Shown piece after piece: positions 20,579-39,272 of a DNA stretch of 64,000 nt; position 1 is the first letter of the stretch, and each line of letters opens with the position of its first letter. The stretch is from positions 1-64,000 of the forward strand of contig NZ_CP016313.1 in NCBI RefSeq assembly GCF_001880325.1. The letters are read 5' to 3'. Position numbers and translations under genes: made by a program. Under the pieces are notes generated by a model. It was not told the DNA's origin. It did no database searches and was given only the letters and a program-made list of their open reading frames with translations. Origin of the DNA: Thermus brockianus (lineage in GTDB: Bacteria > Deinococcota > Deinococci > Deinococcales > Thermaceae).

Positions 20579-21454
20579 TCAGGGGAGCAAGGCCTCAAGC
20601 TCCCTGAGCAACCCTTCCACCAGGCGCCGCCTTTCGGAGGGAAGGGCCTCGAGGTCCAGGCGGCTGAGCCTGGCCACCACCTCCCGGTACCAGGGCCTCG
20701 GGGCCCCCTCCCGCTTCAGGGCCTCCCGCACCTTGGCCTTTAGGTCCCGGAGGGAAAGCCCCGCCTTCGCCTCCTCCAGGAGGGCCCTCCGGAGGGTGTC
20801 GTCCTTCACCTTCTTCAGTTCCAGGGCGGCGGTGTAGGGGATGGAACCGGCCTCGAGGGCCTCCTTTAGGTCCTCGGGGAGCCCTAGGAGAGGAAGCCGG
20901 TTTTGCACGAAGGACTCCCAGGTCATGCGCCCGAGGAGGCGGAAAACCTCCTCCACCTTCTGGGCCTCAGGGTTCCCCATAACGTTATGGGGAACTTTCC
21001 CCCTGGCTTCGTCACGCATCCGGTGGAGCAGGCTCACCACCTCTTCCCTGCTCTTCCCTAGCTCCAGGGCGAGGAGGTCCAGGATCCCCACCGTCTCCTC
21101 GTAGGGGTTCAGGTCCTCCCGCTGGAGGTTCTCCATGAGGGCGATGGCGGAGGCGGCCTTCTCGTCCACCTCCAGGACCACCACCGGCACCTCCGTGAGG
21201 CCCGCCATCTGGGCCGCCCGGTACCGCCTCTCGCCCGCCACGATCTCGTACTTGCCGCCCTCCAAGGGGCGGACCAGGAGGGGCTCCAGGACCCCGTGGG
21301 CCCGGATGGACTCCACCAGGGCCTGGAGGGAGGCCTCCTCAAAGCGGCGCCGGGGCTGGGGACGGGGTACGAGTTCGCCCAGGAGGGCCACGGAGGAGGC
21401 GGGGCGCTTGGCCTCCTCCACCAAGCCCTTGAGGTAAGCCCGGATGGCGCTCAC
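20579..21454 (-). CDS. parB: Plasmid partition protein ParB
   Basis: A 291-residue ParB/Spo0J-type CTPase and centromere-binding protein. N-terminal motif EIVAGERRYRAAQMAG (box II) and MENLQREDLNPYEE are clear; a helix-turn-helix region follows (residues about 125-190) and a leucine-rich C-terminal dimer segment. Unusually, the central linker contains RGKVPHNVMGNPEAQ, encoded by a perfect palindrome (see 20972). It overlaps the parA stop by four bases and is cotranscribed with parA. The gene serves segregation of this replicon, whose origin lies about 14 kb away. Confidence 0.93.
   Translation of the reverse strand: MSAIRAYLKGLVEEAKRPASSVALLGELVPRPQPRRRFEEASLQALVESIRAHGVLEPLLVRPLEGGKYEIVAGERRYRAAQMAGLTEVPVVVLEVDEKAASAIALMENLQREDLNPYEETVGILDLLALELGKSREEVVSLLHRMRDEARGKVPHNVMGNPEAQKVEEVFRLLGRMTWESFVQNRLPLLGLPEDLKEALEAGSIPYTAALELKKVKDDTLRRALLEEAKAGLSLRDLKAKVREALKREGAPRPWYREVVARLSRLDLEALPSERRRLVEGLLRELEALLP
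20972..20995. promoter_or_regulatory. Perfect 24-bp palindrome in parB, candidate parS
   Basis: The half-site GTTCCCCATAAC is followed directly by its exact inverse, giving a 24-bp perfect palindrome inside parB. Within GC-rich coding sequence its central ATAACGTTAT is strikingly AT-rich. ParB proteins bind palindromic parS sites, some of which lie within or beside parB in other bacteria. No second copy was noticed elsewhere in this window. That it is the parS is inference. Confidence 0.65.
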
Positions 21455-33137: not shown

Positions 33138-34085
33138 CTAGCTTCGGAGGTAGAAGGGGGTGTACGTTCCCCGCCCCAAGATGGCCCCCTTAAGCCGGCT
33201 TGCCTGGACCTCTATGAGGTCGGCGTAGCTCTTGCGGAAGCCTAAGGGGTGGGTAGCCTCCTCCAGAAACCGCTCCTCCAAAAGCCCCAGGAGGACCCTC
33301 CGCCCTTCGGAGTTCAGGTAGACCCCGCCCTCCCGCGCTTCCCCATGAGCGGGTGTGAGAAGGCCTTGGCGAAAGGCGCGAAGCACCACGTGGTCCACCA
33401 CCGGCACCCTGAACTCCTCCATCAAGTCCAGAGCTAGGGCTGGGCTCCGGCGGCCCTCCGCATGGAGATACCCCACCTCAGGATGCAACCCTGCCAAGCG
33501 CACCGCCAACTGGACCCGGGCCAGGAGCACGGCGTACCCGTACGAGAGGGCGGCGTTCACCGGGTCCTGTGGGGGCCTCCGGGTGCGCCCTCGTAGCCCA
33601 TAAGCCCCTAAAAGCCTCTCTAGCCCGGCAAAGTAGACCCGTGTAGCCTGGCCCTCCGCCCCCAACAGGGCCTCTTTGGAAGCCGCTTCCGCCACGTCTT
33701 CCAAGACCGCAGCCAGCCTGTCCGCCTCTTCAAGTCCGTACCGTTTCAAAAGCGCCCTGGCCGAGCGGAGCTTGCCTGTGACGAAGGCCCGGGCCAGAGG
33801 CAACGGCGAGGCGGCGAACTGTGCCCGAAGGTGGGTGGGGTCTGGCTCGGGGAAGGCCCCCGCCACGCCGTGGAGAAACCCCTCCAGGCTCAGAAAAAGG
33901 ATGGGCACCCCCTGGCGTAGGAGGAAGACCAGGGCAGGGGTAGAAAGCCGCACGTTGCCCCACACCGCCACCCGCCGCACCTTGCGGGCCGGGAAGTCCG
34001 CAAGCACAAGGCCGCCCTCTTCCAGGACAAGCCGCCCCTCCCGAAGGCGCAAGGTGGTCCCTTGCTGGGCGAGGTGCAGGGTCAT
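33138..34085 (-). CDS. cas1: Cas1 integrase
   Basis: A 315-residue Cas1. Metal-ligand region: GAEGQATRVYFAGLERL (Glu), EVGYLHAEGRRSPALALDLMEE (His and Glu). The N-terminal beta part begins LHLAQQGTTLRLREGRLVL. It starts one base before the stop of the upstream CARF-HEPN gene, so both are cotranscribed. It is separated from its cas2 by the leader and array 1. Confidence 0.94.
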   Translation of the reverse strand: MTLHLAQQGTTLRLREGRLVLEEGGLVLADFPARKVRRVAVWGNVRLSTPALVFLLRQGVPILFLSLEGFLHGVAGAFPEPDPTHLRAQFAASPLPLARAFVTGKLRSARALLKRYGLEEADRLAAVLEDVAEAASKEALLGAEGQATRVYFAGLERLLGAYGLRGRTRRPPQDPVNAALSYGYAVLLARVQLAVRLAGLHPEVGYLHAEGRRSPALALDLMEEFRVPVVDHVVLRAFRQGLLTPAHGEAREGGVYLNSEGRRVLLGLLEERFLEEATHPLGFRKSYADLIEVQASRLKGAILGRGTYTPFYLRS

Positions 34086-35290
34086 CAGAACCTGGGCCAG
34101 GGAGGTAAGGGGGTAAGCCTGGGGTCTAGGGACGAGAGGAACTCCAAGAGGCGCCGGTAATCCTCCTCGCCCACGGGCTTTGTGCCGTGGGCCAGGATGC
34201 TCTCGTGCCGCCGGTTCAGAAGGGCCTGGAGGCGGTTTTTCTCCCCAAAGAGCCGTTGCGTCAGGGTTCCCTGCTGGCCGAAGGCGAGATCCAGCTCAAA
34301 ACCCGCTTCCAGGAGCTCCATGAGGCCCCTAGGCCGCAGGATGCGGTCCCGCAAGGAAGGGGGAAACCCCTGGGGCCAGGTCCTTGGGTCCTTAAGGAGA
34401 AACCCCAAACGCTCGTGCACGTCCGCCTCCACCGCCAGCTCCAAGGCGCGGTAAAGCCGGGCCAAGGCGTCATCGTAGCGGCCCAGGGCTGCCCGGCGTT
34501 CGGCGTTGGCCAAAAGGTCCTGAAGGAGGGGAAAGGTGGGCCTGCCCTCCGCCTCCACAATGGCCCTCAAGTGGGGAAGGAGGCTTTCCAACCCCTTTAA
34601 GACCCGTACCTTCGCCCCATGCCCCCAGGCCTCGGCCACCGCCAGGGCCACGGGCAAGCTAGGGGAGAGGTGGCCCCAGGCCTGGGCGTGGCGGAAGCGG
34701 TCCCACTCCATAAGCCCCAGGACCACCTCCCTTAGGGCGCTATAAAAGCGCGTTTCCGAAGGGCTCAAGGGGCGTTGCAGGAGCGCCTCCAGCTCGGTGA
34801 GGGCCATGCCCAGGTTCAGGGCGTTCCAAGCCCGGGTGAAACCCGCCCACTCCCTCAGGCCCAAACGGGCTGTGGGGTCCTCCAGGAGGCGCACCCGCTC
34901 CGCCCCCGGTAAGACCCGGCCCGTCTCCCGGTCCCGCCTCTCCCCGCCCACGTAGCTGAAGACCACCCCCCGCCCCGTGAGGGCCAAGACAAGCCCCGCC
35001 GCCATGGGCTTGGTGCCCCCCGTGAGGTCGGCCACGATGGCCGTGGCCTCCCACTCCAGGGCCTTGGCCAAAGCCTTGAGAGCCACCTGGTAGGCCTTTA
35101 GGAGGCTTTCCGTATCCTCCACGAGGAGGGTGTGGTGCCGGAAAGACCCCCCGTAGTCCCGCACCAGCTCCGCCGCCACGGGGTGGGAGTCCTGGCTTGC
35201 CAGGAAGACCACCCCCTCCGGGGCGTGGTGGGCCAAGGCCTCCTCCAGGGGCGCCCGGGTGGTACCCACCGTAAGGATGAGGACCCGCAT
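34085..35290 (-). CDS. csm6: Csm6-like CARF-HEPN ribonuclease
   Basis: A 401-residue protein. CARF domain: RVLILTVGTTRAPLEEAL and VADLTGGTKPMAAGLVLALT. The HEPN motif is RHESILAH, R361 with H368 (R-x6-H), then G. This is the Csm6 arrangement, so it is probably a non-specific RNase triggered by cyclic oligoadenylate. It starts with ATG at 35290, six bases after a GATAAT box (35297-35302), and is upstream of cas1. It is one of four CARF proteins in the window. Confidence 0.9.
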   Translation of the reverse strand: MRVLILTVGTTRAPLEEALAHHAPEGVVFLASQDSHPVAAELVRDYGGSFRHHTLLVEDTESLLKAYQVALKALAKALEWEATAIVADLTGGTKPMAAGLVLALTGRGVVFSYVGGERRDRETGRVLPGAERVRLLEDPTARLGLREWAGFTRAWNALNLGMALTELEALLQRPLSPSETRFYSALREVVLGLMEWDRFRHAQAWGHLSPSLPVALAVAEAWGHGAKVRVLKGLESLLPHLRAIVEAEGRPTFPLLQDLLANAERRAALGRYDDALARLYRALELAVEADVHERLGFLLKDPRTWPQGFPPSLRDRILRPRGLMELLEAGFELDLAFGQQGTLTQRLFGEKNRLQALLNRRHESILAHGTKPVGEEDYRRLLEFLSSLDPRLTPLPPWPRF

Positions 35291-35302: not shown

Positions 35303-35573
35303 CCAAGACCACGGGGCGATGCCGCATGGAACCTATTCCCAGGGGGAAGACAAGCCCCAAACCTTTCCCTCCCCGCTTTTTGTCTACATTCCACGATAGC
35401 CCCGGAACGGGGGCTTCGTGCGCCGTTATATAAACCTACTCCAATCAGGCCGGCGCTGATGTTGTTCTCTTTAAAAGTCTGGAAAAAAATAACTATTGAT
35501 TTATTGATGATCAACAACAGGGGCGGGGGGTGGCGGGGCGAAAACCCCCTCCAGCACGCAAGTGGGGGTCCAA
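35303..35573. other. Origin region upstream of the iterons, with AT-rich unwinding segment
   Basis: No gene. About 35456-35519 is the most AT-rich stretch seen in the window (TTTAAAAG, GGAAAAAAATAACTATTG and TTTATTGATGATCAA), a likely DNA-unwinding element beside the iterons. A hairpin GCCCCGGAACGGGGGC lies near 35399-35414. The palindromic TTGATGATCAA occurs at the right end of the AT-rich block. Confidence 0.7.
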
Positions 35574-35875
35574 AACTCCCCAAGTCTTCCGATAGAACTC
35601 CCCAAGTCTTCCGATACCAACTCCCCAAGTCTTCCGATAGTGCACCCCCCAAACTCCCCAAGTCTTCCGATAGCAATTCCCCAAGTCTTCCGATACCAAC
35701 TCCCCAAGTCTTCCGATAGTTCACCCCGCCAAACTCCCCAAGTCTTCCGATACCGGGCGGGGCAAACTCCCCAAGTCTTCCGATACCCGGGCGATGCGGG
35801 AATTGGGCCTTAGGTAGGGGAAAAGGGCGGGGTTTGGCCCCCCGCCGCCTCGCCAACTCCCCAAGTCTTCCGATA
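35574..35875 (-). repeat. Nine 21-bp iterons of the replication origin
   Basis: The unit ACTCCCCAAGTCTTCCGATA, preceded by A, occurs nine times, starting at 35574, 35596, 35619, 35652, 35675, 35698, 35732, 35765 and 35855. Only the fifth has a mismatch (T for C at the third position). Start intervals are 22, 23, 33, 23, 23, 34, 33 and 90 bases, so most copies fall on the same helical face. The last copy ends three bases before the repA stop codon. Confidence 0.93.
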
Positions 35876-35878
35876 CCT

Positions 35879-37258
35879 CTATTTGTCCAGCCCCATCCGG
35901 AAACTTTGGACCCATTCCTCCAAAGTCCCCTGGGCTGCCGCTTCCTTGAGCTCCTCCACCACCCGCTTGGGCTCCAGAACCCCCGTCTCCATCAGGCGGG
36001 TGAGGTCCTCGAGGTCGCCCACGGAAAGCCGGGAGCGGAGGAGGAGCTGGGCCACCTGGAGGGCCCGGCGCACCTGGGCCTCCTTGGGCATGCTCTGCCA
36101 CTCCCGCTCCGCTTCTTCCTCTATCCGGCGCGCCTCCTCTTCCTCCACCTTGGCCTGGACCCTGCGGGTGCTCGGGGGAAGGGCTCGAGCGTACTTGCCG
36201 CTTTCGTCGCGGATCACGTCCACCAGGAAGCCCTGCTTGTTCTTGGGCTTGTACCCGGAGGCCAGGATGCTCCGGTACCGTTCCAGGCGGTCTTTGATGT
36301 GGGCTAGGGAATAGCGGCGGGCCAAGGAGTAGGCGCTGGTGAAGGAGAGGCCTTCCGCCATGAGGAGCTCCACCGCCTCCATGTCGGGGACGCCGCCCGC
36401 CTCCTCGCCGAAGACGTAGACGATGGTCTGGTTCTGGCCCCGGCCGATGTATTCCACGGACTGGAGGTAGCGCCGCTCCATCAGCTCTTCGTGGGCGGGC
36501 TCGAGGGTCCGCCGCACCTTGTCGGGGCGCTTGTGGACGATCTTGCAGGCGGCGGCCCACTCCATGAGGTTCACCTCAAACCGGGTGAGGGGGGTTGGGT
36601 TTTCGGGGGAGAAGCGCTGGGCGTCCAGAAGCCGGTAGAGGGCCCGGCTCAAGGGGCGGCGGAGGCTCGCCATGAACTCAATGTCAATGGGCTTCACGTA
36701 GTTTTGCTTCAGGGAGCGCACGATCTCCTTGGCCAGGGTGATGCGGAGGACGCTTGCCCGGTCCAGCTTGCCCTCCGCCGAGGAGGTGTACTCCAGCTTT
36801 TCTATGTAGCGGAAGGTGACGCTCTGCCACCGCCCATCCGCCCGCCAGGCCTCCGAGAGGACGTAGGTGGCGGTGGTGAGGCGCATGAGGCTCTCCTTGA
36901 GGGCCTGGTAGTAGTAGCCCGAGGTGTCCAGGCCCATGAGCTTCAGGATCTGGTAGGGGGTGGCGGTGAAGGTCCCGTCCTCGGGGCTTCCAGCGTTGAA
37001 GTAGAGGGCGATAAGGGCGAGGGAAACCTCGTTGTCCAGGCCGTGGGGCACGCCGCCCACCTTCTCGCTGGCGTAGCAGGCGAGCTTCACCGGCTTGCCC
37101 AGAAACTCAAACTCCTCCTCCCAGGAGGCGTACCCTTCCGGAATCCGTTCCTGGATGGAGATAAGCCCCAGGCGGGCCACGTTGGCCTCGTCCAGGTGTT
37201 GCGCCCGGGCCAGGACCTCCTTCTTGGAAGGGCGGCTTGCGGCCATGTTCCGGTTCAT
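35879..37258 (-). CDS. repA: Replication initiator protein RepA
   Basis: A 459-residue initiator of the plasmid RepA family (winged-helix). The central part resembles such initiators: LDNEVSLALIALYF, TFTATPYQILKLMGLDT, and RRPLSRALYRLLDAQRFS. It is transcribed towards the iterons, which begin three bases after its stop. The C-terminal part is charged and helical (EEEARRIEEEAEREWQ). It should bind the iterons and open the AT-rich segment at 35456-35519. The gene is divergent from the next CARF gene, 35 bases apart. Confidence 0.92.
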   Translation of the reverse strand: MNRNMAASRPSKKEVLARAQHLDEANVARLGLISIQERIPEGYASWEEEFEFLGKPVKLACYASEKVGGVPHGLDNEVSLALIALYFNAGSPEDGTFTATPYQILKLMGLDTSGYYYQALKESLMRLTTATYVLSEAWRADGRWQSVTFRYIEKLEYTSSAEGKLDRASVLRITLAKEIVRSLKQNYVKPIDIEFMASLRRPLSRALYRLLDAQRFSPENPTPLTRFEVNLMEWAAACKIVHKRPDKVRRTLEPAHEELMERRYLQSVEYIGRGQNQTIVYVFGEEAGGVPDMEAVELLMAEGLSFTSAYSLARRYSLAHIKDRLERYRSILASGYKPKNKQGFLVDVIRDESGKYARALPPSTRRVQAKVEEEEARRIEEEAEREWQSMPKEAQVRRALQVAQLLLRSRLSVGDLEDLTRLMETGVLEPKRVVEELKEAAAQGTLEEWVQSFRMGLDK

Positions 37259-37281
37259 TCTACCGGAGGGCAGGGTTATGG

Positions 37282-37287
37282 TATAAG
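37282..37287 (+). promoter_or_regulatory. -10 box TATAAG before the CARF-HEPN gene
   Basis: TATAAG ends six bases before the ATG at 37294. An overlapping TATGGT is also possible. The same 35 bases must hold the divergent repA promoter. Confidence 0.45.
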
Positions 37288-37293
37288 GCTTCC

Positions 37294-38705
37294 ATGCTTC
37301 AGGAGCACGAAGGGTGGAAGCAGGTACAAGCGGCGTGGGCCCAGTACAAGGAGGCCGTGGCGGCGGGGGGAAACCCCCAGGCCCTGTACCAGGAGATGGT
37401 CTGGCCGCACCTTCTGGCCCTTTGGCGGGTGGCGCCCCCGGTCGTTCCGGAGCGGATGCCCTTTCGCGCCTCCCTCCACACCTTGGGCACGAGCCCCGAG
37501 GCCACGGCCTTGGCCATCCTGGGCACGGGGGCGCGGGAGGTCTACGTCCTCCACACCGAGGAAAGCCGCCGCTTCCTGGAACGCCTGCGCCAGGATACGG
37601 GGGTGGACATCTACCCCATAGAGATTGGCAAGAGCGACGTGGCCGCCATCTACCGGGAGGTGCGGAGGCTTTTGGAGCGCTACCCGGAAGACCCCGTGGC
37701 CCTGGACGTGACGAGCGGCACCAAGGCCATGAGCGCTGGGCTTGCGGCGGCGGGGTTTTTCTTCCGTCGCTTCTTCCCCGAGGTCAAGGTGGTCTACGTG
37801 GACAACGAGGACTACGACGTGGCCCTGCGACGGCCCCGGGCGGGCTCGGAGCGGCTTATCGTCCTGCCCGATCCCCACGAGGTGGGGGGAGAGGTGGACT
37901 GGCTCTTCGCCTCCGAGCTCTATGGAAAGGAGGACTTCGTGGGGGCGGCCGCCTACTTCCAGCGTCTCGTGGGGAATACGGGCAACCAGGCCTATACCCT
38001 TTACGGCATGCTTGCCGAGCTGTACCGGGCCTGGCGGGCCCTGGACTTTAAAGAGGCGGCCAGGAAGGCGGAAAGCCTCCTGGAGGCCCTAAGCAGGAAC
38101 GTGTGGCTCCAACACCCCCTAAACCGGCACTTCCAGCGCCTAAGGCGCCAGGCGGAGCTTCTCCAGGCGGCGCGGGATCTGTTGGTCACCGCTGACCTGG
38201 GCAACCGGCAAGGGGTGCTGGCGGTGGCGGCCACCCTCCTTTACCTGAGCGAGCGGTACGGGAAGCGGGGCCAGACCACCCTGGCGGCCCTCCACGCCTA
38301 CCGGGCCCTGGAGCTTCTCCTGCAGGAGCGGCTTAGGCGGTTTGGCCGCCTTGCCGAGGCTCCCGGGCTTTCCCCCGAGGAGGCGGAGGCTTTGGCGGCG
38401 GAGCTAGGGCGCATCCTCCCCGGGGACGAGCCCCCGAGGGTCCGGGAAAGGCTTGGGCTTCTTGAGGTCTTGGCCTTCCTGCGGGTGTTGGGGGACCCCT
38501 TCTCGCCTCCCTGGAGGTCCGGGCCCTTCAGGGCCTTGCGGGGGTGCTCAAGGCGAGGAACCAGGCCCTTCTCGTCCACGGCCTCCAGGTGCCCACGGAG
38601 AAGCAGGTGGAGCAGGTGGCGGCCCTGGCCCGGAGGCTCCTACAGGACCTGCAGGGGGAGGTGGGGGTCCAGCCGGACCTCGAGGCCATCCCCCTTCCCC
38701 GGTGA
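37294..38705 (+). pseudogene. CARF-HEPN (Csm6-family) protein with frameshift
   Basis: A protein of about 470 residues. The first part holds a CARF domain: ILGTGAREVYVLHTEESRR and LDVTSGTKAMSAGLAAAGFF. At about 38499-38502, after LRVLGDP, the frame breaks; in the -1 frame the sequence continues ASLEVRALQGLAGVLKARNQ, then ALLVHGLQVPTEK, to a stop at 38703-38705. That piece carries the HEPN RNase motif RNQALLVH. A single base is missing from a CCCCTTCTC stretch. Without it the protein would lose its nuclease. Real decay, sequence error or slippage are all possible. Confidence 0.85.
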
Positions 38706-38708
38706 GCC

Positions 38709-39272
38709 GTGGCGGTCTACGTTTCCCTTCTGGGCAACGAGCCTGGCCCCGCCTACATGGGGCTCAAGTTCGTGCGGAGCCGGGCGGGGGAGGTGGAGGA
38801 GGCGGTCTTCTACGCCGAAAGGCCCTGGCCGGGCTACGAGCGAAAGCGGGAGGCCCTTTTTGGGCTCCTGGAGGAAGAGGGAATCCGGTACCGGGTGGTG
38901 GAGGCGGAGGCCTTGGAGGGGGATGCGGCGGGGCCAGGGGGGGAGGTCTGGGTCAACCTCACCGGGGGCTCCAAGCTCCTTGCCCTCCGCTCCCTTCGGC
39001 GTTGGCAGGGGACGGGGGCGAAGGTCTTCCTCCTGGACGCCTACCGGGACCTCGAGGCCCCCCGGGCCCTCTTCCTCCTCCCGGAGGAGGGGGAGGAGGT
39101 GCTGGCGGGGGATGCGGCCCTGACGCTAGCAGACTATTGCCGCCTCTACCTGCAGCCAGAGGGGGAGGAGACGGCGCCCGCAGAACCCCCAAGGGGCGGA
39201 GGCCGTGCGCCTTCCCGGGCGCCAGGGAGGCATCTTTGCGTACTGGGGCCGGCCTTGCCCGAGCCCGGGTGA
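38709..39272 (+). CDS. Truncated Can2/Card1-like CARF protein (nuclease domain lost)
   Basis: A 187-residue protein starting at GTG 38709. Residues 1 to about 150 form a CARF domain with YVSLLGNEPGPAYMGLKF and VNLTGGSKLLALRSLRRW, typical of DUF1887/Can2-Card1. Intact relatives have roughly 350-400 residues and a PD-(D/E)xK nuclease domain after ADYxRLY; here the sequence turns into a low-complexity tail (APAEPPRGGGRAPSRAPG) and stops. A convergent gene starts 310 bases later. A deletion near 39180-39270 probably removed the nuclease domain. Confidence 0.7.
   Translation: MAVYVSLLGNEPGPAYMGLKFVRSRAGEVEEAVFYAERPWPGYERKREALFGLLEEEGIRYRVVEAEALEGDAAGPGGEVWVNLTGGSKLLALRSLRRWQGTGAKVFLLDAYRDLEAPRALFLLPEEGEEVLAGDAALTLADYCRLYLQPEGEETAPAEPPRGGGRAPSRAPGRHLCVLGPALPEPG

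Follow-up and report, generated by a model that had tools for sequence, protein, structure and literature searches.

The window analysed here is a 64-kb stretch of DNA (bases 1-64000) from contig 2 (342,792 bp) of the genome of the hot-spring bacterium Thermus brockianus, which comprises 3 contigs and 2,388,273 bp, and it is taken to be the start of megaplasmid pTB1 of T. brockianus GE-1 (PMC5292009). Between two sets of CRISPR-associated genes it holds a replication initiator gene, repA, an array of direct repeats and an AT-rich block, arranged as follows.

20585-21388, minus strand: parB of the replicon, ~14 kb from the origin region, without the embedded iteron of T. thermophilus parB
34085-35290, minus strand: Csm6-like CARF/HEPN gene (TIGR02710, profile match), a neighbour outside the origin
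35457-35519: putative AT-rich DNA unwinding element, 63 bp, 75% AT, its edges being imperfect inverted 11-12-mers, TGATGTTGTT ... TGATCAACAACA (plus strand)
35520-35573: GC-rich stretch separating the unwinding element from the array
35574-35785, plus strand: iterons 1-8, 21-bp direct repeats with core CCCCAAGTCTTCCGATA, which reads TATCGGAAGACTTGGGG on the minus strand; the copy at 35675-35695 has 1 mismatch
35786-35854, minus strand: 69-bp gap between iterons 8 and 9, with a GC stem and then TTTT
35855-35875, plus strand: iteron 9, the copy nearest to repA, which starts 90 bp after the start of iteron 8 (other Thermus plasmids: 79-92 bp)
35879-37258, minus strand: repA, encoding a 459-aa replication initiator that matches Pfam RPA (PF10134, E 1.3e-51) and, weakly, the Rep3_N winged helix
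36162-36165: global minimum of cumulative GC skew in the 342,792-bp replicon (36,162 raw, 36,165 detrended), ~300 bp from the array
37291-39123, plus strand: divergent CARF gene(s), ~30 bp from the repA start, neighbours outside the origin

The repeat array and the AT-rich element

The array consists of nine direct copies of the 21-bp sequence AACTCCCCAAGTCTTCCGATA at 35574-35875, all on the plus strand, with starts at 35574, 35596, 35619, 35652, 35675, 35698, 35732, 35765 and 35855; eight are exact and only the copy at 35675 departs from the consensus. The distances from start to start are 22, 23, 33, 23, 23, 34, 33 and 90 bp. These values reproduce both the repeat count and the spacings (22-23 or 33-34, the last 90) given in the original prediction, which had been made from the letters of the window. 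Shuffled sequence is expected to contain 0 copies, and a search of the 2.39-Mb genome for further copies with up to 3 mismatches found none besides the array. The same prediction had the array ending three bases before repA. The interval is correct in coordinates, but repA lies on the minus strand, so that these bases follow its stop codon and the array is downstream of the gene. The AT-rich segment predicted beside the repeats, then put at 64 bases, was recovered as the 63-bp block at 35457-35519; upstream of repA no such element was found, the AT content there reaching at most 50% over 50 bp.

Moreover, the GC stem and TTTT in the gap between iterons 8 and 9 are at most suggestive of a possible repA transcription terminator, as the candidate hairpin is predicted to fold no better than shuffled sequences and does not appear in the output of the terminator scan. 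An Rfam search of the region returned no match.

The original prediction further held that the spacing keeps the copies on one face of the helix. The array is indeed in phase, with a coherence (R) of 0.95-0.97 at a pitch of ~11.2-11.3 bp, but it is incoherent at 10.5 bp per turn (R 0.20), and one face of B-DNA in the literal sense is not right. Across all loci the mean R is 0.88 at a period of ~11.2 bp and 0.21 at 10.5 bp. Heat adaptation is an unlikely reason for this period, because the phasing set included arrays of mesophilic Deinococcus. Since cooperative binding is lost in known iteron plasmids when iterons are displaced by half a turn (review, PMC4980987), the quantised ~11.2-bp spacing points to cooperative binding.

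RepA and the GC skew of the replicon

RepA scores 175.8 bits against PF10134 (RPA), for which the curated cut-off is 27. It narrowly misses the cut-off of Rep_3 (PF01051; Rep3_N winged helix) with 21.8 versus 22.4 bits (E 2.7e-4), and a Rep3_N match is seen in 9 of 12 RepA relatives at E values up to 0.1. We regard RepA as likely to be related to the Rep_3 initiators, while not claiming membership, and as a probable winged-helix initiator; the fold is judged from the weak Rep3_N match, as the AlphaFold prediction from a 7-sequence alignment was poor (pLDDT 51) and left the N-terminal domain unmodelled. Searches of PDB sequences, with RepA alone and as a profile, found no relative, and none was found in viral contigs.

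Two accessory elements of iteron-type theta origins were also sought. No DnaA box (TTATCCACA, up to 1 mismatch) occurs in the whole 64-kb window, and in front of repA at 19 Thermus loci the best matches to an iteron-like operator are no better than those in shuffles. DnaA boxes are common yet optional at iteron origins, and DnaA is dispensable for some iteron plasmids; an iteron-like operator at the rep promoter is likewise a common, optional trait. On its promoter side, repA is divergent from the CARF gene with only ~30 bp between the start codons (window positions 37259-37290), for which reason the two promoters must overlap; the transcripts are probably leaderless.

A switch in GC skew within the complete replicon had been named in the original prediction as a check on the origin, and skew pointing elsewhere as grounds for refuting it; the proposed origin passes this test. 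The global minimum of cumulative skew, at 36,162, does lie beside the array, and the maximum falls near 175-183 kb, roughly opposite. The skew range of 4993 compares with a shuffled maximum of 2431-2535 (block shuffles of the complete replicon), and by position alone the chance of a minimum so near the array is ~0.001. The plasmid of T. brockianus SNM4-1 agrees, its minimum and its array being 488 bp apart. The corresponding distances are 6.7 kb in T. oshimai pTHEOS01 and 16.6 kb in the M. taiwanensis plasmid, where the range does not exceed that of shuffles in either case, and it is only in T. brockianus plasmids that skew provides strong evidence.

Distribution of the module, its neighbours and alternative readings

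Every Thermus genome with RepA carries the iteron core beside repA (14 of 14, with the arrays of G013 and G020 on short or split contigs), as against 0 of 13 genomes without RepA, which have either no core or isolated copies; we infer from this co-occurrence that RepA binds the iterons. In Thermus the core TATCGGAAGACTTGGGG sits directly behind repA, most genomes having 8-9 copies and G022 as many as 15, and the repA-proximal iteron is always set off by 79-92 bp. Meiothermus and Allomeiothermus have a related core, TATCGGAATACTTGG, beside repA, and that of D. peraridilitoris is TATCGGAAGACTTGGGCC. The PF10134 replicons of these genera and of Deinococcus resemble those of Thermus in a RepA that is 46-48% identical, in a related core, TATCGGAA[GT]ACTTGG, and in the order of iterons followed by AT-rich element. 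They differ in that the array lies upstream of repA in Meiothermus, Allomeiothermus, D. peraridilitoris and D. deserti; in D. deserti (plasmid 2, L035) the iterons are more diverged and in reverse, the origin module being inverted relative to repA. Almost every RepA replicon that was read from Thermus, Meiothermus and Deinococcus has an AT-rich element of 52-66 bp with 69-78% AT, bordered by imperfect inverted motifs (e.g., TGTTGTTGATC...GATCAACAACA) and at a conserved position relative to the array. The order within the module is constant and only the side on which repA lies varies, a pattern suggesting at least two rearrangements of the module with respect to repA. The comparison shows one predicted origin type serving plasmids across Thermus, Meiothermus and Deinococcus.

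Two further observations concern the placement of these elements. A complete repA-iteron-AT module is present in a chromosome-sized contig of 2,243,772 bp (G019:C2, L126), with repA near 131.8-133.2 kb, as if a megaplasmid had been integrated. In addition, T. arciformis and several plasmids of the T. brockianus-like group have a lone iteron-like copy on the far side of the AT-rich element, 220-270 bp away from the array (L065:505, L066:1480, L067:1269).

One question is whether the array marks the origin itself. The array follows repA just as incA of P1 and incC of F follow their rep genes, and it could by analogy be a copy-control (incompatibility) locus with the true origin elsewhere. However, the replicon contains no second array, the AT-rich element adjoins this array and has no counterpart upstream of repA, and the skew minimum is at the array, which together make a separate origin very improbable. 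A single array probably serves both functions.

Alternatively, the repeats could form a centromere (parS array) whose binding protein is ParB and not RepA. Direct repeats are centromeres in some plasmids, ParB2 and ParB3 of D. radiodurans bind their iteron arrays (PMC7671480), and a single exact core lies within some Thermus parB genes. Nevertheless, the arrays track RepA: some ParB is present in every Thermus genome, and plasmid-type ParB occurs in genomes that have neither RepA nor arrays. Moreover, parB is 14 kb from the array in the T. brockianus plasmid, and parS of HB27 is a different, 14-bp palindrome (PMC4409726), which was not found in the 64-kb window at up to 2 mismatches. We consider it very improbable, to much the same degree, that ParB is the protein for which this array exists.

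The core within parB deserves description in its own right. In other Thermus genomes, exact isolated cores fall within plasmid-type parB, where L-S-E-D-L-G is encoded as CTA TCG GAA GAC TTG GGG. Among the 15 parB genes with the core these six codons are nearly invariant, even though Thermus makes little use of four of them (5-23% usage). Conserved uncommon codons number 9 across 291 columns of parB, and 4 of the 9 are in these six, a count that is not a formal test as the 15 rows share descent. The parB genes of the T. brockianus plasmid and its nearest relatives encode L-A-L-E-L-G in ordinary codons and have no core. In HB27 and HB8 the parB core is close to the origin (L029:10422; L030:10396), and the embedded core is possibly a RepA site. 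However, it is also present in genomes in which RepA was not found (G002, G005, G009, G017 and G025), which counts against a simple obligatory role. Exact or one-mismatch cores in parB were seen at L050-L064, L091-L101 and L118-L120. Further lone cores, some in parB remnants, lie a few kb from the origin in HB27 pTT27 (L029:7067 and 7142) and in HB8 (L030:9227 and 8038).

How, then, should the CRISPR genes around the origin be read? The flanking genes themselves are as originally described, with cas1 and the Csm6-like CARF gene on one side and CARF genes, together with a Cmr module, on the other. It had also been suggested that replication and CRISPR immunity share this locus, and in a meaningful sense this would make the origin and the type III CRISPR/CARF genes a functional unit. 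In such a unit CARF signalling might, for example, act on replication. The close divergence of repA and the CARF gene, the second CARF gene adjoining the unwinding element, and the retention of the arrangement in SNM4-1, G021 and G024 are in keeping with this idea. However, those flanks are kept in the T. brockianus-like group only, and the same repA, iteron and AT-rich layout occurs without cas/CARF homologues beside it in T. oshimai, HB8, HB27, T. aquaticus, G008, G015, G016, G018, G019 and G022. Where the csm6-like gene is down to a 94-residue remnant (G010 and G011; L121 and L122), the CRISPR block appears decayed and the origin is intact. Finally, the spacers of the plasmid's CRISPR arrays have no convincing match to the origin or repA, the longest exact match being 16 bp; apparent matches of s7 and s8 were rejected, as these are the iteron array itself, caught by a simple array detector. 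A functional unit is for these reasons very unlikely, and we conclude that the CRISPR genes are probably chance neighbours with no function in the origin. The idea that the repeats are a CRISPR array in degenerate or miniature form, which their position among cas/CARF genes and a flag from the same detector might suggest, is ruled out by anatomy and distribution, given gaps of 1-13 bp plus one of 69 bp in place of uniform 30-45-bp spacers, a 21-bp repeat unlike the 29-37-bp CRISPR repeats of the plasmid, and iterons in plasmids without cas genes nearby.

A proposed model for replication initiation and copy control

In line with the original prediction of an iteron-type origin, we favour the reading that the megaplasmid has a single theta replication origin of the iteron type and that this region is it, and we consider this very probable. 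The rationale is based on the unique array, the unwinding-type AT-rich element, the adjoining PF10134 initiator, the skew reversal at the array and the conservation that tracks RepA, all of which are features of the sequence itself. RepA binding, melting, helicase loading and copy control at this origin would then proceed as follows. RepA monomers would bind the nine in-phase iterons cooperatively, and the bound protein would strain the adjacent 63-bp AT-rich element until it melts, allowing the host helicase to be loaded there and two forks to be established. Excess RepA would pair the iterons of sister plasmids (handcuffing), the iterons would titrate RepA, and these two effects would limit copy number. 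Because the iterons follow repA and no iteron-like operator precedes it, copy control is probably exerted by titration and handcuffing, or through a different operator; the classic mode of control, in which a partial iteron mediates repression of rep, is not evident.

The proposed origin resembles those of the iteron theta plasmids RK2, R6K, F, P1 and pPS10 in its combination of 17-22-bp direct repeats at whole helical turns, an AT-rich element and an adjacent plasmid-coded initiator gene. It differs from them in having nine copies, an array placed after rep, no DnaA box, no iteron-like rep operator and an initiator of family PF10134 that is weakly Rep_3-like. Closer at hand, the pTT27 origins of T. 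thermophilus HB27 and HB8 share an orthologous RepA (~80% identical), the iteron core, the downstream layout and the position of the unwinding element; they differ in having no adjacent cas/CARF genes, parAB directly beside the origin and one more iteron within parB. An earlier study used GC skew to place the HB27 megaplasmid origin near TT_P0079, in the vicinity of repA and parAB (PMC4409726), and the word 'iteron' is absent from that paper and from its 2023 follow-up (PMC10085754). In D. radiodurans, iteron arrays of chromosome II and the megaplasmid keep a non-replicating (suicide) plasmid alive (PMC7671480). In those cis elements, too, 18-bp direct repeats form arrays accompanied by AT-rich sequence, but they have another repeat sequence, lie beside parAB and were attributed to DnaA and ParB binding, the initiator not being identified there. 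Origin databases such as DoriC may already list predictions.

We hypothesize, as a possible but on balance doubtful extension, that Thermus relocated a phylum-wide iteron origin to a position behind repA, which would have freed RepA synthesis from iteron repression and left copy number to titration and handcuffing alone, including a RepA site within parB of T. thermophilus-type plasmids that would couple replication control with partition. The core embedded in parB of these related plasmids makes such a link directly testable. Moreover, the 1.8-kb replicon (35450-37300) could yield new compatible vectors. For Thermus, a genus used both as a model and in biotechnology, the analysis provides a precise, testable megaplasmid origin, where the open literature searched holds an earlier placement by GC skew only.
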